11,358 nucleotides of DNA from Candidatus Omnitrophota bacterium (GTDB lineage: Bacteria > Omnitrophota > Gorgyraeia > 2-01-FULL-45-10). Where the stretch lies: the NCBI GenBank assembly GCA_016214245.1, contig JACROW010000061.1, positions 1 to 11,358 on the forward strand, read 5' to 3'. Each line of letters starts with the position of its first letter. Positions within the stretch are counted from its first letter, which is position 1. Below are positions 1-11,358 of this stretch, piece after piece. The notes beneath the pieces were generated by a model that worked only from the letters and a program-made list of their open reading frames with translations, was not told the DNA's origin and searched no databases. The position numbers and the translations under genes are program-made.

Positions 1-411
1 GGTATAATCTATCTCGTGCTTTAATCCGAATTGCTTGGCGTGAGGAATTCTTTTCGTGAGTAGCCACCCCATCTTTTTATCATAGCCGACCCTTTCCGGG
101 ATCCCGGCCAGAAATGTGATGATATGCGTTCTGTTCGTTGGATGCAAAATTATAGCCAGGTCGAATCTGTGCCGGTGCAGATTCAATATAAAAGTCAAGT
201 TTCCCAAAATGCCTTTTTCAGCTTCCTCCTTATCATAGATTATAACCTCATTTAGATAAGGATTCCCTTCCACTACCTCCCGGCAATATGGCTGGACCAT
301 GAATGCGATATGACTTGCGGGCTTTGCCTCCCTCACAGCCTTTATGACAGGCGTCGATAAAAGGACATCTCCAATTCTATCTAACCTGATTATTAAGATT
401 TTTTTATCCAT
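1..411 (-). CDS. GT9 heptosyltransferase-like glycosyltransferase, N-terminal part (cut by left window edge)
   Basis: This is the first 137 codons of a gene whose 3' end lies beyond position 1. The start is ATG at 411, inside the tail of the upstream GT9 gene, with an 8-base ATGGATAA overlap. The protein opens with the GT9 (Pfam PF01075) N-terminal signature: a beta strand KKILIIRLDRIGD followed by VLLSTPVIKAVRE (residues 3-28), the glycine loop of the first Rossmann half of ADP-heptose:LPS heptosyltransferases. Later segments (EVVEGNPYLNEVIIYD, ILHPTNRTHIITFLAGIPERVGYD) track the 346-residue GT9 gene at 1356-2396 closely, so the two are paralogues. The nucleotide-sugar binding C-terminal half is not visible. 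By family it would transfer a heptose or similar sugar to the growing LPS core in the cytoplasm. Donor and acceptor cannot be read from the sequence. Confidence 0.9.
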   Translation of the reverse strand, partial: MDKKILIIRLDRIGDVLLSTPVIKAVREAKPASHIAFMVQPYCREVVEGNPYLNEVIIYDKEEAEKGILGNLTFILNLHRHRFDLAIILHPTNRTHIITFLAGIPERVGYDKKMGWLLTKRIPHAKQFGLKHEIDYT

Positions 412-1381
412 ATCCTTCTACCATCATTTTCGCAGTATCGAAAACCTCGTCCGGGGAAATCAGCTTCATGCACTCGTAATTATAGCGGCAGGTTGCGCTT
501 TCGCACGGGGAACAGAAGAGCTCTTTTTTTATCACCGCGTCGAATTCTCCTGTCGGCCCATATTTCTTTGGGTCGGTCGGCCCGAAGAGGGCCAGGACCT
601 TCGTCCCGGAGGCGCAGCCCAGATGGAGCGGTGCACTATCGTTCGTTATAAGAAGCCCTGCCCTTTTTAGAAGGCTTGCCAGCTGACGGATATTCGTCAT
701 ATTGGCAAGATTATGCGCCTTCTTCTTCATCTTGCTCATTACCGCCTTAATGATATCCTCATCTTCCTTCAAACCTATGAATACCACATTAATTTTACAT
801 TCATCGATGAGCCTGTCGCATACCTTGGCGAAGCTGTCTTGCGGCCACCTCTTCAAATGGCTTTTAGCGCCTGGGCTGACTACTACTATCGGCTCACGAA
901 TATTATATTCCTTCAACAAATTTGAAATATATTCCTCATCTTCCACTGGAATATATAGGTAAGATCTTTCACTTAGGTTTCCTATTCCTAAAGAGTTCAA
1001 TCTGTATAGATGCCGTTCTTTCCTGTGGACCAGTTCCTTCGGGAATTTCTGGATAGTGCCTGTCCTATACCTTGGCCCGAGTAAAATCGGAAATATAGTA
1101 TTTCTCAAATCCACGACGAGATCATACTTCATCTTTTTAAGCTTCAGCTGCAGCCGCCTCTTCTGTATTATCGGCATATGTTTGTCATAGATTATAAGCT
1201 TGAAAACCTTAGGGTCATGATCGAATATCTCTTTTCCATTCGGCCCGACCATGACATCTATCCTCGCCGTGGAAAATTCCTTCGCAAGGGCTCTTATCAC
1301 CGGCGTCGTGAGGATGATGTCGCCAACATTGCTTAAGCTGATGACCAGAATGCGTTTAACTTGGGATTTGTCTATTATCAT
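404..1381 (-). CDS. GT9 heptosyltransferase-like glycosyltransferase
   Basis: The protein has 325 residues, a normal length for family GT9 (heptosyltransferases WaaC, WaaF and WaaQ). The N-terminal strand and loop VKRILVISLSNVGDIILTTP span residues 8-27. The C-terminal nucleotide-binding half carries SPGAKSHLKRWP (169-180, conserved Lys177), NDSAPLHLGCA (247-257) and ALFGPTDPKKYGP (264-276). A cysteine cluster C290-x2-C293-x4-C298-x5-C304 follows, as in many GT9 members. The enzyme probably adds a heptose or related sugar to the LPS core in the cytoplasm, with a glycan acceptor rather than naked lipid A. The ATG at 1381 lies 26 bases inside the upstream GT9 gene and has no clear Shine-Dalgarno sequence, suggesting translational coupling. 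It is more diverged from its two flanking GT9 genes than those are from each other. Family call is firm; sugar specificity is unknown. Confidence 0.93.
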   Translation of the reverse strand: MIIDKSQVKRILVISLSNVGDIILTTPVIRALAKEFSTARIDVMVGPNGKEIFDHDPKVFKLIIYDKHMPIIQKRRLQLKLKKMKYDLVVDLRNTIFPILLGPRYRTGTIQKFPKELVHRKERHLYRLNSLGIGNLSERSYLYIPVEDEEYISNLLKEYNIREPIVVVSPGAKSHLKRWPQDSFAKVCDRLIDECKINVVFIGLKEDEDIIKAVMSKMKKKAHNLANMTNIRQLASLLKRAGLLITNDSAPLHLGCASGTKVLALFGPTDPKKYGPTGEFDAVIKKELFCSPCESATCRYNYECMKLISPDEVFDTAKMMVEGYG

Positions 1382-2396
1382 TTTGCATTAACATGTTGCT
1401 TGCTGTTTGGAATACGTCCTCAACCGTTATCGCCTGCATACACCGATTGTCTCTGCATGTAACATCGTAGCAGGGTATTTCACATCCGGTATCCTTATAG
1501 ATAACCCGATATTTGCCGCTGCCATACGGCCCTGTGATCGCGGGTGATGTTGGGCCGAATAAGGCTATCACCCTAGTCTTCATGGCTACTGCTATATGCA
1601 TAGGCCCTGTATCATTGGCTATTGCCAAATCCGCCCTTTTCAGTAAAGCGCCGAGCTCTTTGAGACTGGTTTTACCGCACATGATTATCGGCGCGGCCTT
1701 CATCATCCCTTCAATAGTTTCTGCAAGCCCCATATCCTTTTTAGCGCCGGCTATGGCTATCTTTGCCCCGAATCTTTCCGCTAAGATATCCGCGAGCCTT
1801 GCGAAATTTGCCGCAGGCCACCTCTTCATATCCCAGTTCCCTCCGGGACAGAGGACGATCAGAAGATCTTTATCGGCTACACCATAACTTTTGAGCAGAT
1901 CTTTTATGTAACTTTCGTCAGAATCCCTGATGAAGAACTCGTATGAGCGGTCGCGGGGTGTTATACCGGTTCTTCTTGCCACATTCAAAAAATATTCGAC
2001 CTTGTGAGGCTCGTCTATCGGTTCCTCAACTGTCTTTGTCAAGAGGATGGCTCTATTCTTAGTAGGATATCCTATCCTTTCCTTTATACCAGCAAGCCTT
2101 GCTATTAGTGCCTTGGTAAAAGACCGATGGAGAATAAACGCAACGTCAAAATTTTTCCTTCTTAATGATGCTATCAGCTTGAGTTTTCCAATCAAGCCTT
2201 TATGCGCCCCCTCTTCGTCATATATTATGAGCTCATTTATACGAGGGCTTCCTTCGAGCACCTCGAGGCACCTGGGATGCAGAAGACAGGCGATGTGACT
2301 CTTGGGATATGCCTCGCGGACAGCCCTTATGAACGGCGTAGAGAACAACACATCCCCTACCCAATTTACGTTTACTATAAGGATTTTCTTTTCCAC
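1356..2396 (-). CDS. GT9 glycosyltransferase, WaaF-like (ADP-heptose:LPS heptosyltransferase II type)
   Basis: The 346-residue protein resembles ADP-heptose:LPS heptosyltransferase II. Seen motifs are KKILIVNVNWVGDVLFSTPF (residues 3-22), CPGGNWDMKRWP (183-194, with Lys191 in the position of the conserved catalytic-region lysine), NDTGPMHIAVAM (261-272) and ALFGPTSPAITGP (278-290). It ends with a cysteine cluster (C305, C309, C314, C319). The start is GTG at 2396. A stop codon lies a few codons upstream in this frame and the first beta strand begins at residue 3, so no other start is reasonable. It overlaps the end of the deacetylase gene by 22 bases and has no obvious Shine-Dalgarno, which fits translational coupling. 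Of the GT9 genes here, it and the left-edge gene look most WaaF-like. The heptose donor is inferred from the family; other GT9 enzymes use other sugars, so no gene symbol is given. Confidence 0.93.
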   Translation of the reverse strand: MEKKILIVNVNWVGDVLFSTPFIRAVREAYPKSHIACLLHPRCLEVLEGSPRINELIIYDEEGAHKGLIGKLKLIASLRRKNFDVAFILHRSFTKALIARLAGIKERIGYPTKNRAILLTKTVEEPIDEPHKVEYFLNVARRTGITPRDRSYEFFIRDSDESYIKDLLKSYGVADKDLLIVLCPGGNWDMKRWPAANFARLADILAERFGAKIAIAGAKKDMGLAETIEGMMKAAPIIMCGKTSLKELGALLKRADLAIANDTGPMHIAVAMKTRVIALFGPTSPAITGPYGSGKYRVIYKDTGCEIPCYDVTCRDNRCMQAITVEDVFQTASNMLMQNDNRQIPS

Positions 2397-3202
2397 AGTA
2401 GATATGGTATGTCTTTATAATCGTTCTGGATAACCCTCAAGAATGAGTGATAGCCTGATATCTTAATGACGAATACAAAGAGATTATTCGCGGCAGGCGA
2501 TATCCGCACCCTCTTTATCTCACAGATATCATAGTTTGGAGATAACCTCGTAGGCTTCGTCGCAAATGCTGCTTTATATCCGGCGGCTTTTACAGCTGAC
2601 TTTACATGCTCATTATACGCGCCCATCGGATAGCATAGATACTTTATCTCTTTGCCGACGCCCCCCTCCAAAATCCGCTTCGAGTCCATGAGTTCACTCC
2701 TTAATCTAGCATCATCAAGCCCTGTGAGCCACGTGTGGGAGATTGTGTGGCTTTCTATATCTATTACGCCGGAATCGGACATCTCCTTTATCTTGTCCCA
2801 GTTCAAGAAGCCCTCCTCGCCGACCATATTTACTATGATAAATATCGTCGCCGGGATATGATATCTTTTCAATACAGGGTAGACGTAAGTATAATTATTC
2901 GCATAGCCGTCATCTATGGTTATGGCGACCGTGTTTCTTGGCGGCCTTTCTTCTCTTTCGATATATTCGACTGCTTTTTCGAGAGGGATCACATTATATC
3001 TCTTATCTGAAAGATACTTCATCTGTTTTGCGAAGACATCGGGCGGGACCGTCATCCTATCCTTCCTGTCAGAGGTATAGTCTATGGAATGATACATCAA
3101 TACAGGAAGGCGATAGATAGAATCTAAGAATATCTTGAACGATATGGCCGCCGCAAAGACGATTATGACGGCGGCGATCAGAAATCTTTTACTGATTCGC
3201 AT
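2375..3202 (-). CDS. Membrane-anchored polysaccharide deacetylase (NodB-homology, carbohydrate esterase 4 type)
   Basis: The 275-residue protein begins with positively charged MRISKR and one hydrophobic helix (about residues 7-26), predicting an N-in anchor with the catalytic domain outside the inner membrane. The catalytic domain shows LMYHSI (35-40), the metal-binding Asp motif TIDDGY (95-100, Asp97-Asp98), the zinc-ligand motif SHTISH (151-156, His152 and His156) and CYPMGAYN (190-197). These are the ordered motifs of NodB-type deacetylases (PF01522), which remove N- or O-acetyl groups from glycans. The ATG at 3202 is preceded by GGAG four bases upstream and overlaps the GT4 gene by 14 bases. 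Placed among LPS core glycosyltransferases, its substrate is plausibly an acetylated amino sugar of the core or attached polysaccharide, but peptidoglycan or an exopolysaccharide cannot be excluded. Family call is firm; substrate is inference. Confidence 0.92.
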   Translation of the reverse strand: MRISKRFLIAAVIIVFAAAISFKIFLDSIYRLPVLMYHSIDYTSDRKDRMTVPPDVFAKQMKYLSDKRYNVIPLEKAVEYIEREERPPRNTVAITIDDGYANNYTYVYPVLKRYHIPATIFIIVNMVGEEGFLNWDKIKEMSDSGVIDIESHTISHTWLTGLDDARLRSELMDSKRILEGGVGKEIKYLCYPMGAYNEHVKSAVKAAGYKAAFATKPTRLSPNYDICEIKRVRISPAANNLFVFVIKISGYHSFLRVIQNDYKDIPYLLWKRKSL

Positions 3203-4244
3203 GGGACTCCAGCATTTTCTTATATAAATTTAGAACTCTATCTGCCATAGTCGGCAAGGAGAACCGTTCCGTCGCCAAAATCCTGGCATCTTTTCCCAGC
3301 TGCTTCCTTAAAACCTCGTCATCTAAAAGACGAATGATAGAATCGCTTAAGGTTTTTACATCGCCCACCGGAAACAGTATCCCTGTCGAACCATCCTTTA
3401 TCAAATCCTTAATGCCGCCAACATCCGATGCAACGCATGGCTTGCCAGAAACCATGGCCTCCAATAGAGAAATGCCCAACCCTTCCTTGATAGACGGGAA
3501 TACAAATATATCCATGATTGCGAGGTATTTAGAGGTATCCGGATCTGACTTTAGAATTTGGACTGACTCTTCTATTCCGAGATTGGAAACAAGTTTTTTT
3601 AGCTTAATTTCTTCCGGGCCGTCGCCCATTATAATAGCCTGGATCATATGGCGCCTGCAGATGACATCCTTAATCGCCTCGATAAAGGTCCTTTGGCCCT
3701 TGACAGGCGAAAGCCTTCCGATCGTTCCGACGATCGGACCATCCTTTAGCCTGAGACTTCTTTTAAACTCCGATAACTCGGCGCTTGAATAGTCTCTTGA
3801 AAATCTATCGATCTCCACACCATTATATATGAGCTCCACTCTTTGCGGAGCCACTTTAAAATCATTGATGAGGCTATCCTTAACAGGCTCGCTTATCGCT
3901 ATCACCTTTTCGCCCCAAAGGTCGAAGAGCCTTCTCCCAAGCCTCTTTTTGAAAAACCCGTGACAGGTCGTGACATATGGCACGCCGGCAATGCGGGAAG
4001 CGAAAAATGCAAGCGCCTGTGAGACCCTTGTGTGCGCATGTATGATACCGGTCTTCTCTTCCTTTATTATCTTGAATATCTTCGGGATGGCTCTTAAGAC
4101 CTTCGGCCCAAATTCAAATTTGGTCTTTATATCCAATAACCTTGTCTCTATGCCGCGTTTCCTGAACTCCGCATCAAGAGTGCCGCCGGCCGAGACGACC
4201 AGGCAATCGACGCCTTTTCCTTTCAGCGCGAGACGACCAGGCAA
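3189..4244 (-). CDS. GT4 glycosyltransferase, 5' end broken by a 38-bp tandem duplication
   Basis: As it stands, the longest open frame gives 351 residues from a TTG at 4244. That start lies inside a 38-bp tandem duplication, and the first five residues are encoded by the wrong frame. Removing one repeat copy restores a 370-residue protein from ATG 4339, beginning MKILQLTTHINIGG, the standard first strand and GG loop of GT4 enzymes. The rest is intact: HAHTRVSQALAFFA (69-82), VTTCHGFF (91-98), IYNGVEIDRF (139-148), VGTIGRLSPVKGQ (172-184) and the donor-binding E-x7-E motif (Glu254, Glu262) before LEAMVSGKPCVASDVGG. The restored enzyme would transfer a sugar from a nucleotide-sugar donor to the LPS glycan. 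A purine-rich GGAAAAGG (4251-4258) lies six bases before the TTG, so re-initiation is possible, but that product lacks the first strand and is probably impaired. Family call is firm; activity in this state is doubtful. Confidence 0.85.
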   Translation of the reverse strand: MPGRLALKGKGVDCLVVSAGGTLDAEFRKRGIETRLLDIKTKFEFGPKVLRAIPKIFKIIKEEKTGIIHAHTRVSQALAFFASRIAGVPYVTTCHGFFKKRLGRRLFDLWGEKVIAISEPVKDSLINDFKVAPQRVELIYNGVEIDRFSRDYSSAELSEFKRSLRLKDGPIVGTIGRLSPVKGQRTFIEAIKDVICRRHMIQAIIMGDGPEEIKLKKLVSNLGIEESVQILKSDPDTSKYLAIMDIFVFPSIKEGLGISLLEAMVSGKPCVASDVGGIKDLIKDGSTGILFPVGDVKTLSDSIIRLLDDEVLRKQLGKDARILATERFSLPTMADRVLNLYKKMLESHANQ

Positions 4245-4267
4245 TCGACGCCTTTTCCTTTCAGCGC
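4191..4267. repeat. Perfect 38-bp tandem direct duplication inside the GT4 gene
   Basis: The 38-base unit starting CGAGACGACCAGGCAATCGA on the plus strand occupies 4191-4228 and is repeated without mismatch at 4229-4266. The match runs one base further, to 4267, so 39 bases are shared. Because 38 is not a multiple of three, the duplication shifts the reading frame of the GT4 gene and brings in a TGA. The identity of the copies implies a recent event, a slip-type variable locus, or an assembly error. Confidence 0.97.
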
Positions 4268-4339
4268 CCCGGATAATGAGAGGATGTAATTAGCTATCCC
4301 GCCTATATTGATATGAGTTGTCAGCTGTAGAATTTTCAT
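4223..4339 (-). pseudogene. Displaced 5' end of the GT4 gene (38-codon fragment ending at a premature TGA)
   Basis: ATG 4339 opens a frame that encodes MKILQLTTHINIGGIANYIL and continues through the first repeat copy as ALKGKGVDCLVVS. It then reads CGC TGA in the second copy and stops at 4223. This is the true N-terminus of the GT4 gene at 3189-4244: deleting 38 bases joins the two frames with no stop and gives a canonical GT4 N-terminus. The restored start would lie 50 bases inside the upstream GT4-GT9 gene, longer than the other overlaps in this block but in the same style. No clear Shine-Dalgarno precedes it. Confidence 0.85.
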
Positions 4340-6422
4340 CTAAATAATTTTTTTTCATCACATCGAATACTTCGCCCACTGTGATATCCTTCATGCATTT
4401 AAAATTTTTAATGCAGTGCGTGCTGTAACAAGGGCTGCATTTCATATCCTTCCTGATCATCGTATAATCCCCTGAAGGGACGATATGCCTTTTGGGGTCA
4501 GTTGGGCCGAATAAGGCGATGAAAGGCGTGGCCACAGCAGATGCGATATGCATCGGCGCGGAATCCGGAGTGAGATACACCTTGAAGCGTTTTATGAGGC
4601 ATGCCAACTCCAGGATATCCGTCTTCCCCACAGCCGTTATCGGTTTCGACTTGGTCGCTTTTAGAATCTGGTTTGTGAAATTCAAGTCTTCCTTCGAGCC
4701 TGTCAATACTACCCTTATATTGAACTCTTTTGCCAGCCTGTCGCAAAGCTCTGCTATATGAGATGCCGGCCAGTTCTTGGCCTGCCAGCGTGATGAGGCC
4801 CTGACATTTATGCCTACCAGGGCCTGGCCTGGCTTTACCCAATTATCCTTTAGAAATTGCTCCATCCTTCTTTCGTCACCTTCCGAAGGCCAAAGCTCGA
4901 GGTTCTTCTCCTGAGGCCTTATGCCTGCCAGCTTCAATGTCCTGAACTGGTGCTCGATCGGATCCAGGAATGGCGCGTCGTCCTTCACCTTCCTGTTTAA
5001 AAGTAAAGAGAGCTTCCCATTATCATAGCCATACCTAACAGGGGCGTAAGTCAAAAATGCCAATATGTGGCTCTTTCGATTATTCTGTAAATCTATGATA
5101 ATATCATAATAATCCTTCCTCAATCTCCGTGCCAGTCTCAACAGCCCTAATACGCCTTTATCCTTGCTTTTAAGGTCGCATACTATCCTGTCATTGATGT
5201 AAGGGCATCTGTCGAATACATCCCTCGACTGTATTCCGACGAGGACCTTTATATTCGCGTTATCGAATTTAGCGCGTATTGCGCGAAGCGAGGGCACGCT
5301 CAAAATACAGTCCCCTATCGCGCTTATCTTTATGACCAATATGTTTAAAGCTTTAATCGCCTCTTCATAGACCGCTATCGTCTTCCTCATCATGGTGTCC
5401 GAATTGAAACTTTCTTCAACGCGTCTTCTCGCCTCCACAACCAGTCTTTTAGCGAGTTCTTTATCCCTATAGAGCCTCAATATCTTATCGGCCAGATCAA
5501 CAGGGTCATTTGCTGCGGCCAAAAGGCCGTTACGTTCATCCTCTACGATATCCACGATACCACCCACCCTTGTCGAGACCACAGGAACGCCTGCGGCCTG
5601 CGCCTCTATGATGACCCTGCCGAATGCCTCCGGAGTCACTGTCGCTGAGACAAGGGTGTCTAACTGGCCCATTATAGCCGGCACATCCTCCTTCGCCCCC
5701 AGAAATTCTATCGTCCTTGAAAGGCCTAATCTTCTGGTCAATAGCTCCAGATCCTCTCTATATTTAACCTTTGGGGCCTCACCCGCTATAAGAACTTTCA
5801 GCTGTGGAATCTGCCTATAAATAATAGATACCGCCTTTATAAAATCTGTGTGGCCTTTGAGCGGCGTTATCCTCGAGACCATGCCAATTGTGAACTCTCC
5901 GGAAGAATGTGCGTCGGGATCCCTGAATTTAAACTTATCGAGATCCACACCCCGCGGTATGAGCCTGATCCGCTCATAGGGCACACCGAAATCGCAGGCC
6001 ATATGGCGGGCCATTATATTTGAGGCGACGATGACGAATCTTCCCCAGCCCATCACGTCGCTTAAAGGATGCTTCTTGTAATAACCGTGAGCGGTGGTTA
6101 TGAATATCTTCCTTGTGGATTTGCATGCGAAGAATGCTATTATCGCGGGGACGCGGGAGCGCGCATGAACTATGTCTATCTCCTCATCTCTTATGATATT
6201 GGACAATTCTTTTATCATCCTTATGATATTGAGAATTGATTTTTTGCCGACAGGAAGCGTGTAATGCCGCGCGCCCGGGATGTCGAGTTGTTTCACAAGC
6301 CTGCCGCCGCCTGAGACGACGATCGACCTGTGTCCGTGGGATGCGAGATACCTTGCCAAATCTATTGTCCCCGTCTCAACGCCTCCGACATCCAACGATG
6401 GGAGAATCTGCAATATCTTCAT
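4290..6422 (-). CDS. Fused GT4-GT9 bifunctional glycosyltransferase
   Basis: This 710-residue protein is two complete glycosyltransferases in one frame. Residues 1 to about 357 are GT4: MKILQILPSLDVGGVE (N-terminal strand and GG loop), TTAHGYYKKHP (109-119), IPRGVDLDKF (155-164), IGMVSRITPLKGH (179-191) and an E-x7-E motif (Glu265, Glu273) before AQAAGVPVVSTRVGG. Residues from about 358 to 690 are GT9: NILVIKISAIGDCILSVP (360-377), KNWP (549-552), PDSAPMHIASA (619-629), ALFGPTDPKRH (636-646) and a cysteine cluster (C662, C665, C670, C676). There is no linker beyond a few residues, and an internal ATG is lacking at the junction (around 5345). The two domains may add consecutive sugars to the LPS core. 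The gene begins five bases after the acyltransferase-ELM1 gene, with only a distant GGAG. Each domain call is firm; coupled action and sugar identities are inference. Confidence 0.93.
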   Translation of the reverse strand: MKILQILPSLDVGGVETGTIDLARYLASHGHRSIVVSGGGRLVKQLDIPGARHYTLPVGKKSILNIIRMIKELSNIIRDEEIDIVHARSRVPAIIAFFACKSTRKIFITTAHGYYKKHPLSDVMGWGRFVIVASNIMARHMACDFGVPYERIRLIPRGVDLDKFKFRDPDAHSSGEFTIGMVSRITPLKGHTDFIKAVSIIYRQIPQLKVLIAGEAPKVKYREDLELLTRRLGLSRTIEFLGAKEDVPAIMGQLDTLVSATVTPEAFGRVIIEAQAAGVPVVSTRVGGIVDIVEDERNGLLAAANDPVDLADKILRLYRDKELAKRLVVEARRRVEESFNSDTMMRKTIAVYEEAIKALNILVIKISAIGDCILSVPSLRAIRAKFDNANIKVLVGIQSRDVFDRCPYINDRIVCDLKSKDKGVLGLLRLARRLRKDYYDIIIDLQNNRKSHILAFLTYAPVRYGYDNGKLSLLLNRKVKDDAPFLDPIEHQFRTLKLAGIRPQEKNLELWPSEGDERRMEQFLKDNWVKPGQALVGINVRASSRWQAKNWPASHIAELCDRLAKEFNIRVVLTGSKEDLNFTNQILKATKSKPITAVGKTDILELACLIKRFKVYLTPDSAPMHIASAVATPFIALFGPTDPKRHIVPSGDYTMIRKDMKCSPCYSTHCIKNFKCMKDITVGEVFDVMKKNYLDENSTADNSYQYRRDS

Positions 6423-6427
6423 AAAAA

Positions 6428-8368
6428 TTAAATCAATCTCCGGACTGCCTCAAAGATCCTGTCATTGTCTATCAGCTCCCTGACAGGTGCCTCATCTTTA
6501 TAGACCTTTTCTATTACCGGGGCTAGGTCTTTAGCAGTGCAGGCACTGATGTATCCTCTTCTCTCTAATTCTTTTAAAGCGGCCTCATGCTTTGTCGAAA
6601 CGCCTTTCTTATTCTCCAATTTAAATACTACTACCTTCTTCCGGGAGCTGGCCTCTGATACCATCGAGATGGATTCACCGGATACTATAATGATGCTGCT
6701 CAAATCCAGGATACCGCCTACCGCTTCTTCCAGATTGGACTCGTTTGCTATCACAAGCAGTTTACATCTATGGTCATCCTTCAATCTATTTTTCAGAACG
6801 GCTTCAGCTTCCGTGGGCGTCCTCCTCGAGGTGGTGATGAGAAGCTCTGCATCGGTGCTGTCACAAAATTTCAATAAACCGTCTATTACACTGTTTATTG
6901 TTTCACCGGTTAATGAATATTCGGGATTGTCTCCACCGATGAGAACGCCCAAGACTGTCTTCTTTCCAAGCTGGATGCGCTTTTTAAGCATTTCGCCATC
7001 GCGCTTAAGCGTCTCTTCGTCTATCAGGTTTGGAGCTATAGTAGTTACTAGGACATTCTTGGCCTTTGGCGGATTGTCATGCTTCGGTATTACCGCGAGT
7101 GAGAATTTCTTCAACCCCACAAGGGCATCCGGCTTCATGATTATAATATTTTTTGCGTTGTTCTCCTTCGACATGTAGATATTTACAGCCGCTAAACTGG
7201 AGCCGCATGAGACTATGAATTCTGAATATGTCTTCATCAGGGTTTCATAAGTCTCTCTCTCCAAGCAGAACCTCATACAGCGCATGCGGCCGTGGCACCT
7301 CCAGCTTGCGAAGGCCGAAGACAATGATAGGATCGACCTTAAAAAGGGACTCTTAAATTTTACGTCAACCCTGATTATTTTAGTATCGTCGAGGCCATAC
7401 CCTTGGGCCGTCCTCGCCTTTTGTATCTCGCGCGCCACGGCGAGCGATTGATTCAGGTGGCCGGTCCTGCCGTCATTTAAGACAAGGACCGTCCTTGTGG
7501 GCGTTGACTTCCACCTCTTATGCAGCCACAGCCACTGGTCCGGGTATCTTCTTACATAATTCTCCAGGAGTGCGGCATATTTTTGGAGATTCTCCTTTAT
7601 ATCGTCACCGCCTTTGGATAGCCTGAAGTCTATATACTCCTCCAGGAAGACCTTATGATAAGGCCCATGTCTCCTCGCTATGAAATTCGGAATGATTATT
7701 GAATCCGTCCTCTTCGCCATCTCCATGGTGCCCGAATGGCAGGATGTGGGCCTGCCAAAGAAGTCAACGAATACGCCGTTCCTGCCGGCATCCTGGTCCG
7801 AAAGTATACCTACTATATTCTTGTCATATAGCGCCCTCAAGAGATTCTTCGTCGATATGCCCTTCCTCACGACCTTACAGCCTTTCGATTCCCTAAGTCG
7901 GTTCAAGAGCTCATTCACACGCTTCATCTTCTGTTCCCTTACCAAGACAGTAATGGGAAAGCCCACCATGGCGCTCGTCAGGCTTAAGAGCTCCCAATCG
8001 CCGAAGTGCGCTGTCAAAAGGATAACTCCGCGTCCCGATTTTGCCGCATCCTTGACGCGCTCGAAATTTATGATCTCGACATATTTGGCTGCATATCCCT
8101 TATCCACTATTGTAAGATTCAATATCTCGACGAAGGTCTCGACGAGATTCTGATATGTCTTCTTGGTGATCGCTCGCAGCTCTCCGGGAGATCTTTCCTT
8201 ACAGAATGCGGCCTTCAGATTGGCGTAAGCTATCAGCCGCCGTTTTTTGTTGAAGATGAATGCTATGGTCCCCAACCTCCTGCCAACCCATAAAGAGATG
8301 CTTATGGGGATGAGAGAGAAGATGAGATTTAAAAACCTAATTATTATAGAGACTATGTAATCCAGCAA
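6428..8368 (-). CDS. Lipid A acyltransferase (LpxL/HtrB-like) fused to an ELM1-like putative glycosyltransferase domain
   Basis: The 646-residue protein has two parts. Residues 1 to about 290 match LpxL/HtrB lipid A acyltransferases, which add a secondary acyl chain from acyl-ACP to Kdo-lipid A at the inner membrane. They show an N-terminal hydrophobic helix (2-20), the catalytic H-x4-E motif HFGDWE (His121, Glu126), LSDQDAGRNGVFVDFFG (189-205) and YPDQWLWLHKRWKSTP (275-290). Residues from about 291 to 646 resemble the ELM1 family (DUF1022, PF06258; bacterial members are named putative glycosyltransferases): VLVLNDGRTGHLNQSLA (294-310), MKPDALVG (411-418), IGGDNPEYSL (477-486), TTSRRTP (512-518) and IVSGESISMVSEA (561-573). 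LpxL enzymes normally end near 300-320 residues, so the second half is a true extra domain. The TTG start is supported by AAGGGAG seven bases upstream. The gene overlaps lpxK by 32 bases. The role of the ELM1 part is not known. Confidence 0.92.
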   Translation of the reverse strand: MLDYIVSIIIRFLNLIFSLIPISISLWVGRRLGTIAFIFNKKRRLIAYANLKAAFCKERSPGELRAITKKTYQNLVETFVEILNLTIVDKGYAAKYVEIINFERVKDAAKSGRGVILLTAHFGDWELLSLTSAMVGFPITVLVREQKMKRVNELLNRLRESKGCKVVRKGISTKNLLRALYDKNIVGILSDQDAGRNGVFVDFFGRPTSCHSGTMEMAKRTDSIIIPNFIARRHGPYHKVFLEEYIDFRLSKGGDDIKENLQKYAALLENYVRRYPDQWLWLHKRWKSTPTRTVLVLNDGRTGHLNQSLAVAREIQKARTAQGYGLDDTKIIRVDVKFKSPFLRSILSLSSAFASWRCHGRMRCMRFCLERETYETLMKTYSEFIVSCGSSLAAVNIYMSKENNAKNIIIMKPDALVGLKKFSLAVIPKHDNPPKAKNVLVTTIAPNLIDEETLKRDGEMLKKRIQLGKKTVLGVLIGGDNPEYSLTGETINSVIDGLLKFCDSTDAELLITTSRRTPTEAEAVLKNRLKDDHRCKLLVIANESNLEEAVGGILDLSSIIIVSGESISMVSEASSRKKVVVFKLENKKGVSTKHEAALKELERRGYISACTAKDLAPVIEKVYKDEAPVRELIDNDRIFEAVRRLI

Positions 8369-9374
8369 TTATATTCTCCCTTCCCGCCGATATCTCCATC
8401 TCCACCGATAATACTGTCACTGTATAATCGGCTATGGCTAGCCCCAGGCGGTTAAGTTTTACGGCATCCTTTTCCGTCGTCAATAGGATATCGAAGTTCT
8501 TTTCATTGCACATCTTCGCTATATGCTCTATGTCGATAATACTATAATTGTGATGATCCGGAAATTTGAGATGCATTATGATATTGGCGCCCAAATCCTT
8601 GACAGTCTCCTCAAAATATTCCGGGTCTCCTATGCTTGAAAATAGAATTGTCTTCTTGCCTCTTGTGTAAGTCAGGTCTAAAATTTTCTTTGTCCGTATT
8701 TCATAAAGCCCCTTTGGCTTATGTATAGCCTCTGCAAATACGATATCGTCTTTTATCTTCCTCAAGCTCTCTCTTACAATATCGATATCGCAGCGGGCCT
8801 TGTTCACCTTTGTGAACACGATTATATCGGCCCTTTTTACGGAATCCTTTGGCTCCCTTAAGACGCCCCGCGGAAAAAGTTGCCCGTTGCCGAAAGGGTT
8901 TCTCGAATCTATCAACACTATATCGAGATCCCTTTCAAGCTCCCAATACTGGAAACCGTCATCCAGTATTGCCGTATCGCTTCCATTCATCTTGATGGTC
9001 CGTCTGGCTGCCTTGACCCTGTTCTCTCCTACAAGTATGGGGATGTTCGGGAGGCTCGTTCGCAGCATGGCCTGTTCATCCCAGCCGTAACCCCGGATCA
9101 ATACGCTCACCTCTTTTTTCAGCTCATCCTTTAATATCTTAGCTAAAGCTATCACGAAAGGCGTCTTTCCGGTTCCGCCCAGCGTTATATTTCCAACGCT
9201 CACTACATTCATCGGCACCTTCTGCCTTTTGAATATGCCGTATTTATAAAGAATGCATCTTGCCCATATGCCTATACCGTAAAGTAAAGAGGCAAAATAT
9301 AAGAGCCATTTAAGCGGTTCGAATACCGGCTCTTTTCTCTTATCGGTCATCAACGAATAGATGAACTGCCGCAT
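8337..9374 (-). CDS. lpxK: Tetraacyldisaccharide 4'-kinase (lipid A kinase LpxK)
   Basis: LpxK phosphorylates the 4' position of the tetraacyl disaccharide-1-phosphate with ATP to give lipid IVA at the cytoplasmic face of the inner membrane. The 345-residue protein has the family's N-terminal membrane helix (about 20-38) and the P-loop VGNITLGGTGKTP (60-72). Further family motifs are RGYG (94-97), DDGFQYWEL (138-146), NPFGNGQLFPRGVLREP (159-175), FPDHHNYS (271-278) and TTEKDAVKL (299-307). Length is close to the usual 320-350. The start used is ATG 9374, 35 bases inside waaA. An in-frame ATG at 9350 (residue 9) is a possible alternative with a shorter overlap. The stop overlaps the acyltransferase start by 32 bases. 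Its place between waaA and the LpxL-like gene fits the biochemical order of lipid A completion. Confidence 0.96.
   Translation of the reverse strand: MRQFIYSLMTDKRKEPVFEPLKWLLYFASLLYGIGIWARCILYKYGIFKRQKVPMNVVSVGNITLGGTGKTPFVIALAKILKDELKKEVSVLIRGYGWDEQAMLRTSLPNIPILVGENRVKAARRTIKMNGSDTAILDDGFQYWELERDLDIVLIDSRNPFGNGQLFPRGVLREPKDSVKRADIIVFTKVNKARCDIDIVRESLRKIKDDIVFAEAIHKPKGLYEIRTKKILDLTYTRGKKTILFSSIGDPEYFEETVKDLGANIIMHLKFPDHHNYSIIDIEHIAKMCNEKNFDILLTTEKDAVKLNRLGLAIADYTVTVLSVEMEISAGRENIIAGLHSLYNN
8376..8382 (-). promoter_or_regulatory. Strong ribosome binding site that fixes the TTG start of the acyltransferase gene
   Basis: On the minus strand AAGGGAG lies seven bases before the TTG at 8368. This is the best Shine-Dalgarno match seen near a start in the window, and it supports TTG as the genuine start. 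It sits inside the coding end of lpxK. Confidence 0.75.
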
Positions 9375-10623
9375 CTAAGTTCCGTTCTGTCGCCCCGCGA
9401 TTCTCGGAGACTGTCCTTTTGGCATTTTGACCCAACTGTATGCGCGCCGCACTATCTTTCAGCAGGGACTTGGCCTTTTCAAGCAGATCCTTTTTATTCA
9501 TGACCTGAATGGCAGCGCCATTTTTTAAAAATATAGAGGCTATGTCTTTAAAATTGAACATATACGGCCCGAACAGGATCGCTTTTTCAGAGACGGCTGG
9601 CTCTATCGGATTCTGTCCGCCGTGTTTCACGAGGCTGCCGCCCATAAAGACAAGTGTTGCGATCGCGTAAACATCCTTCAGCTGTCCAATGGTATCGAGT
9701 ATAAAAATTTGTTTTGGGTTTTGGGTTTTGGGTTTTGGGTTTACTGCTGATGTCCTGATCGACTCGAATCCGAATTTTCTTACGACTTGCTCTACCTCGC
9801 CCGCCCGTTCGATATGCCGCGGTGCTATCAAGAGGTTCAGCCCCGGAAATTCCCTGAGGAGGTTCTTGAAGACTTCGATCACAATATCTTCTTCCCCGTT
9901 ATGCGTGCTTCCGGCGACAAGTAGTTGCGCGTCAGCTTTTAGGCCTAATGATTCCCGCATCTTTTGTGCCGATTCCGCATCCCCTGCCGCCTCGATATCG
10001 AATTTCATACTGCCTGTTACTCCGACCCTGCCGGATGGCGCACCTAAAGAGATTATCCTTTCGGCATCGATCTCGCTCTGCATGCAGAATTTGTCTATTT
10101 TAGTCAATATATCTTTCAGGAACAGCTTCGCCAATCTATACATGCCGAAAGATTTATCGGATATCCTTCCATTTATAAGTATGGATGGGATCTTATTATC
10201 TGACGCCTCTTTTATCATATTCGGCCAGATCTCTGTCTCTACCATGATATAAAGTCCCGGCCTTATAAGGCTCACGACCTTTTTTACGATAAATGAAAAA
10301 TCCAACGGAAAGTATATGACGACAGCCTCACCGGAAAATATCTTCTTGGCAAGGTCATTCCCTGTCCTGGTTATCGTCGACAAGACTATTTCCTTATCCG
10401 GGAATTTACCTTTTAATAATGGGATAAGGGCCCTGCAAAGGCTCACCTCACCCACGCTTACCGCCTGAATCCAAATCCGCTCTTCGCCGGAACTTAAACT
10501 ATCTCTTTTACACTTTTCGTATATGCCGAACCTCTCAAGGAAGTCTCCATGCAGCTTTCCTTTAAATAGAAGCGTCGGAAGATAAATTATCGAAAATATA
10601 AGAAATCCTATATCGTATAACAT
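9340..10623 (-). CDS. waaA: Kdo transferase WaaA (3-deoxy-D-manno-octulosonic acid transferase)
   Basis: WaaA (KdtA, family GT30) moves Kdo from CMP-Kdo to lipid IVA. The 427-residue length is standard. Visible features in order: a hydrophobic N-terminal anchor (about 4-20); WIQAVSVGEV (51-60), whose Glu59 matches the family's catalytic glutamate; PLDFS (106-110); ETEIWPN (129-135); GSMKFDI (204-210); AGSTHNGEE (237-245); APRHIER (267-273); LDTIGQLKDVYA (309-320); and GGSLVKHGGQNPIEPA (328-343). The number of Kdo residues it adds is not readable. The start is ATG 10623, 27 bases after xerC, with GGGTGAG just upstream. A heptanucleotide repeat encodes residues about 295-305 in a loop region; its present copy number keeps the frame, but a change of one copy would break the gene. 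It overlaps lpxK by 35 bases. Confidence 0.96.
   Translation of the reverse strand: MLYDIGFLIFSIIYLPTLLFKGKLHGDFLERFGIYEKCKRDSLSSGEERIWIQAVSVGEVSLCRALIPLLKGKFPDKEIVLSTITRTGNDLAKKIFSGEAVVIYFPLDFSFIVKKVVSLIRPGLYIMVETEIWPNMIKEASDNKIPSILINGRISDKSFGMYRLAKLFLKDILTKIDKFCMQSEIDAERIISLGAPSGRVGVTGSMKFDIEAAGDAESAQKMRESLGLKADAQLLVAGSTHNGEEDIVIEVFKNLLREFPGLNLLIAPRHIERAGEVEQVVRKFGFESIRTSAVNPKPKTQNPKQIFILDTIGQLKDVYAIATLVFMGGSLVKHGGQNPIEPAVSEKAILFGPYMFNFKDIASIFLKNGAAIQVMNKKDLLEKAKSLLKDSAARIQLGQNAKRTVSENRGATERNLDAAVHLFVDDR
9711..9742. repeat. Heptanucleotide repeat (TTTTGGG)n inside waaA, also a G-quadruplex pattern
   Basis: The plus strand has a perfect period-7 run of 32 bases, unit TTTTGGG, about 4.6 copies, with four full units at 9712-9739. 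The minus (coding) strand reads CCCAAAA repeats that encode the Pro/Lys-rich NPKPKTQNPKQ in WaaA. Four GGG tracts separated by TTTT loops match the standard G-quadruplex consensus on the strand used as transcription template. Confidence 0.95.
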
Positions 10624-10650
10624 ATCTCACCCGTAGTTCGAGAGGGGATC

Positions 10651-11358
10651 CTATGCGCGAGGATGGGCCTTATCGTAAACCGACTTCAGCCTCTCCATCG
10701 TGACATGAGTATAAATTTGCGTTGTGGAAAGGTTCATGTGGCCGAGAAGCTCCTGGACGCTCCTCAGGTCAGCGCCCCTGTCCAGAAGATGCGTCGCGAA
10801 TGAATGTCTCAAAGAATGCGGGGATATCTTCTCTCTTATGCTCAAGCTCCTGATATGTTTATCGACGATGCGCCTTATGCTTCTGTCCGTAAGGCGGCGG
10901 CCTGATTTATTCAAAAATACCGCGTCTTTGTCCCTTACCTTATCAGTGCTTCGTTTATCAATATATCTTCTCATGGCAGCCAATGCGGGCTCTCCTATCG
11001 GGACGATCCTCTCCCTCGAGCCTTTGCCCAAGACCTTGATAACGCCGCTTATGAAATCCACATCATCCACATCCAATCCAACAAGCTCGCTCACCCTTAT
11101 ACCTGTAGAGTAGAGGGTCTCCAAAACAGCCCTGTCCCGCAGGCCTGATATCTTATCAGCCGGGGGAGATTGAACAAGTTTTAACATCTTTTCGACATCC
11201 AGAAATTTAGGAAGCACCTTGTCGAGCTTTGGGGTGGAGACTGCGCTTATCGGATTGGTCTTTATATGACCTTCCCTGTATAAAAATTTAAAGAAGCTTC
11301 TAAGGCATGCGAGCTTTCGCGCTATCGTCCTTTTGGAATAATCTTTTTGCCGCATCTC
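10651..11358 (-). CDS. xerC: Tyrosine recombinase XerC (N-terminus beyond the right window edge)
   Basis: The visible 235 codons hold the end of the N-terminal SAM-like DNA-binding domain (KDYSKRTIARKLACLRSFF) and a complete catalytic domain. Numbering from the Met at 11355, the tyrosine-recombinase residues are Arg87 (TGIRVSEL), Lys111 (GKGSRERIVP), His180 and Arg183 (HSLRHSFATHL), His206 (LLGHMNLST) and nucleophile Tyr215 (TQIYTH). The C-terminus VYDKAHPRA is typical of XerC rather than XerD. XerC enzymes are about 300 residues, so roughly 60-70 residues lie beyond the edge; the frame stays open to 11358 and the Met at 11355 is internal, not the start. XerC normally works with XerD to resolve chromosome dimers at dif sites. 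No integron or phage features are seen nearby, which favours the housekeeping role. Only 27 bases separate it from waaA, with no terminator hairpin visible, so read-through is likely. Confidence 0.94.
   Translation of the reverse strand, partial: EMRQKDYSKRTIARKLACLRSFFKFLYREGHIKTNPISAVSTPKLDKVLPKFLDVEKMLKLVQSPPADKISGLRDRAVLETLYSTGIRVSELVGLDVDDVDFISGVIKVLGKGSRERIVPIGEPALAAMRRYIDKRSTDKVRDKDAVFLNKSGRRLTDRSIRRIVDKHIRSLSIREKISPHSLRHSFATHLLDRGADLRSVQELLGHMNLSTTQIYTHVTMERLKSVYDKAHPRA

Follow-up and report, generated by a model that had tools for sequence, protein, structure and literature searches.

A perfect 38-base tandem duplication dividing a GT4 glycosyltransferase gene in a probable Omnitrophota draft genome is very probably an unmerged contig-end overlap

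The perfect tandem duplication of 38 bases that divides a GT4 glycosyltransferase gene in this draft genome is, with high probability, an assembly artifact, namely, an overlap between two contig ends that was left unmerged with no gap written; as a genuine biological feature, the duplication is most likely not real. The genome comprises 724,322 bases in 132 contigs and is 73.9% complete, and the window, that is, the whole stretch of 11,358 bases analyzed here, corresponds to bases 1-11358 of scaffold C22 (14,785 bases). Two short contigs would have ended inside the GT4 gene, overlapping by 38 bases; the overlap would have been left unmerged, and a scaffolding or gap-closing step would have abutted the contigs without N, such that the common 38 bases came to be written twice. 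The organism itself most likely has a single copy and encodes an intact GT4 enzyme of ~370 residues. The relevant features are the following:

3189..4244, minus strand: C-terminal piece of the split GT4 gene, starting at TTG, 351 aa, aligning to residues 26-370 of P0002
4191..4228, minus strand: 38-base repeat, second copy in the reading direction, same as the first (sequence)
4223..4339, minus strand: N-terminal piece of the GT4 gene, ATG 4339, 38 codons, TGA 4225-4223, aligning to residues 1-37 of P0002
4229..4266, minus strand: 38-base repeat, first copy in the reading direction (sequence)
4290..6422, minus strand: open GT4-GT9 fusion gene, 710 aa, neighbor of the split GT4 gene (ORF and Pfam)
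11309..11358, no strand assigned: 50-base stretch at the window end, recurring after 24 N at L051 11383-11432

Direct comparison within the window shows that the copies at 4191-4228 and 4229-4266 are identical and abut each other, and Tandem Repeats Finder reports 4191-4267 with a period of 38 and 100% matches. The unit length is not divisible by three, and the repeat sits in the coding frame of the GT4 gene, which it shifts, leaving the glycine-rich N-terminus, as assembled, out of frame with the rest of the protein. The divided frame is directly legible: translation from the ATG at 4339 runs into the TGA at 4223 after 38 codons, and the remaining enzyme is open only from the TTG at 4244, which falls within the repeat, down to 3189. 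The preliminary description had reported the two back-to-back copies with a length indivisible by three, the early stop and the TTG start inside the repeat, and our coordinates and frame readings agree with it on each. Chance origin of a perfect 38-base tandem copy, at ~4^-38 per position, is negligible. For the 50 bases tested (4179-4228), the idea that a DNA hairpin caused a contig break found no support (z = 0.45).

The C-terminal piece contains two Pfam domains, Glycos_transf_1 (146 bits) and Glyco_transf_4 (77.4 bits), both scoring above the curated cut-offs (26.4 and 28.5, respectively); together with the neighboring genes, these domains bear out the earlier reading of a GT4 gene, broken in frame, within a lipopolysaccharide-type cluster. 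In the protein search, the window's own protein is represented by P0001, which stands for two member sequences, and among the matches listed (the best 120 of 721), the closest others are P0002 (370 aa, 78% identity) and P0003 (369 aa, 68% identity). Both pieces align gap-free to P0002, the N-terminal one on residues 1-37 and the C-terminal one on residues 26-370, and therefore have in common just the residues encoded by the repeat. The unbroken protein would comprise 370 residues, a predicted length that is supported by the alignment of both pieces without removal of any copy and that matches the intact length implied in the preliminary description.

A match to the GT4 protein was obtained in all 57 genomes searched, the own one included. 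Of the 29 genome-collection loci, 25 are named Omnitrophota or Omnitrophica, as are the organisms given for the listed protein matches. A placement of the own genome in Omnitrophota, made only by homology, is probable. For the comparison of the locus, 26 of these 29 loci were combined with 19 relatives' loci (L032-L050), and removal of three sequence duplicates (L032, L034 and L041) from the resulting 45 yielded 42 distinct loci, none of them from the same species as the window; L028-L030 (25-29% identity), which are not Omnitrophota or are without a named phylum, were left out. One of the 42, L026, resembles, by inspection, the GT4 of the neighboring fusion gene more than the GT4 gene itself. 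The whole frame is seen directly in these relatives, with the glycine-rich N-terminal start in frame in all 42 according to a simpler motif pattern (the first pattern matched 33 of the 42). Exact tandem repeats (15-119 bases per unit) at most 150 bases from the match start were absent from all 42 distinct loci. Outside this set, the best match in G004 is divided between two contigs.

The visible joins of the same assembly argue for an unmerged overlap. Immediately after the end of the window, C22 continues with 24 N (L051 11359-11382), 7.1 kb from the 38-base repeat, and this gap has the same 50 bases on both sides, as is expected where overlapping contigs are kept apart by a guessed gap. The scan of the own assembly covered 80 of the 132 contigs, with 66 readable, 14 wholly N and 406,635 readable bases in total. 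Identical abutting flanks (50, 16 and 10 bases) are directly visible at three of its four N gaps, the other two being a gap of 4 N in C1 with 16-base flanks and one of 55 N in C76 with 10-base flanks; at the gap of 14 N in C42 (L112 1286-1299), no duplicated flank was found. A further test on the last 20 contigs (16 readable) gave one more N gap, with a 10-base overlap. In the relatives' loci, identical abutting flanks of at least 10 bases were present at two of 11 N gaps (L009, 127; L020, 14). Duplicated gap flanks are thus not peculiar to the own genome, but are less frequent in the relatives (2/11 versus 3/4).

A scan for tandem copies (units of 20-200 bases, identity ≥80%) yielded three N-free tandem duplications with a unit of 30-200 bases in the 406,635 readable bases of the own genome. 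Their units, of 38, 77 and 41 bases, each leave a remainder of 2 on division by 3, and each divides a conserved gene. The 77-base duplication on C38 (L088 5676-5829), with one mismatch between the copies, divides a DHH phosphoesterase gene between its DHH and DHHA1 domains, which fall in separate pieces, and the 41-base duplication on C5 (L056 3395-3476; 90% identity) divides a glutamine synthetase gene (L056 2746-4296). By inspection, the two glutamine synthetase copies encode the same protein stretch and are two substitutions apart, a difference that would fit contig ends derived from two strains. This gene could, however, be a real pseudogene, because it contains, in addition to the duplication, another frame break near 4000-4040 and is followed by a further glutamine synthetase-like ORF beginning at 4480 (translation by inspection). 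No new N-free duplication of at least 30 bases was found in the last 20 contigs (16 readable). Among 46 relatives' loci with 612,733 readable bases, a count inflated by sequence included twice (L004 is the L094 contig, and L002 and L091 overlap), there were two repeats with a unit of at least 30 bases (36 and 35 bases), and a listed ORF is open through each.

We infer that junction 4228/4229 is a contig join. The identity and exact abutment of the two copies and the duplicated flanks at three of the four visible joins speak for the artifact; against it stand the lack of N at this junction, where the join itself is invisible, the one N gap of four without a duplicated flank, and the small number of N-free cases (three). 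Of the three meanings offered in the preliminary description, an inactivating mutation, a switch and an assembly error, the last is the one favored by the 50-base N-gap flanks, the 77- and 41-base splits and the absence of such a repeat from the 42 relatives, whereas the switch is supported by nothing but the length of the unit and the type of gene. Erroneous duplication at contig boundaries has been described as a class of assembly error (PMC8081667), and the false homotype duplications of Rhie et al. (2021; PMC8081667) were found in vertebrate assemblies and were about as long as a read. As in those cases, a stretch common to two contig ends would have been written twice on scaffolding; unlike the vertebrate cases, the present ones belong to a bacterial draft genome and span 10-77 bases. 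The likeness extends to scaffolds in which overlapping neighbor contigs are kept apart, although junction 4228/4229 retains no N.

The best-surviving alternative, a true, recent and fixed duplication that inactivated the GT4 gene in the sampled strain, is unlikely. It would account for a frame that is broken as assembled and for a junction unmarked by N, and lesions of this gene may occur elsewhere, given that the best matches in the distant genomes G037 and G051 (41% identity; outside the 42) each contain one stop. However, the ends of the 38-base repeat share, by inspection, a single base of microhomology, which leaves ordinary slippage without an obvious substrate; the same kind of lesion affects two other conserved genes of the sample; N gaps of the assembly have duplicated flanks; and the N-terminus is in frame in every one of the 42 distinct related loci.

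A reversible on/off switch of the sugar transferase, operating through slippage or recombination between the copies, is very unlikely. Repeat-driven switching is well established for lipopolysaccharide-type genes of other bacteria, and the present repeat resembles the phase-variable lipopolysaccharide glycosyltransferase genes in that its unit is not divisible by three and is situated close to the beginning of a sugar transferase gene, within a lipopolysaccharide-type cluster that includes LpxK, Kdo transferase, lipid A acyltransferase and GT9 genes. Unlike the known cases, which use many short units, the one described here has just two copies of a long unit, has no counterpart in the 42 relatives and shares its lesion with unrelated genes of the same assembly, glutamine synthetase and DHH phosphoesterase, neither of which is a surface gene. 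Comparison of the locus in relatives, put forward in the preliminary description as a check, went against the switch, with an exact tandem repeat near the match start in 0 of 42 distinct loci, which rules out a switch conserved among the relatives. That this one Omnitrophota bacterium possesses a real, reversible switch of one sugar transferase with two copies of a long unit, the other two duplications stemming from the same active duplication process, is likewise highly improbable; if true, the switch would represent surface variation of an unusual kind in a phylum about which little is known. The literature on lipopolysaccharide glycosyltransferases, both that concerned with tandem duplication and phase variation and that concerned with Omnitrophota, contained nothing on this locus in titles and the opening parts of abstracts.

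Finally, production of a functional shorter enzyme from the two-copy form, by reinitiation at TTG 4244, is extremely improbable. In its favor are a purine-rich stretch a few bases ahead of the TTG (by inspection) and a 351-aa open frame in which both GT4 domains are recognized, but this form would be devoid of approximately 24 N-terminal residues, among them the glycine pair that the motif search placed in frame in 42 of 42 distinct relatives.

An unmerged overlap at this locus would carry a warning, in that perfect, frame-breaking tandem duplications in fragmented drafts can be contig overlaps that were never merged. A quick, read-free test for such overlaps is to inspect how other N gaps of the assembly are flanked.

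The minus strand of the window, as annotated with Pfam for the ORFs other than the partial one at 1-411, is a run of cell-envelope genes, comprising a Phage_integrase tyrosine recombinase, Kdo transferase, LpxK, lipid A acyltransferase-ELM1 fusion, GT4-GT9 fusion, GT4 gene, polysaccharide deacetylase and two GT9 genes. In many relatives, GT4-matching open frames of ~690-770 residues, some of them longer, adjoin the GT4 gene. At 6428-8368, a lipid A acyltransferase is joined to an ELM1-type domain in one protein (Pfam), and in all 29 loci matching the first half of this fusion (46 searched, some of them overlapping), a match to the second half follows close behind in the same frame.

The Kdo transferase gene (9340-10623, minus strand) contains, at 9711-9742, a perfect 4.6-copy array of a 7-base unit, in a region that varies in length among the relatives; the frame is open as assembled. 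Because 7 is not a multiple of three, this array is a stronger candidate for slippage than the 38-base duplication. Four 7-base tandem arrays, that of the window included, are present in the 406,635 readable bases of the own genome, the others being located at L125 1120-1152 and 4176-4207 and at L147 2500-2532, and 12 are present in the 612,733 bases of the relatives, in L004, L010, L018, L022, L025, L094, L097 and L108 (L004 being the same contig as L094).
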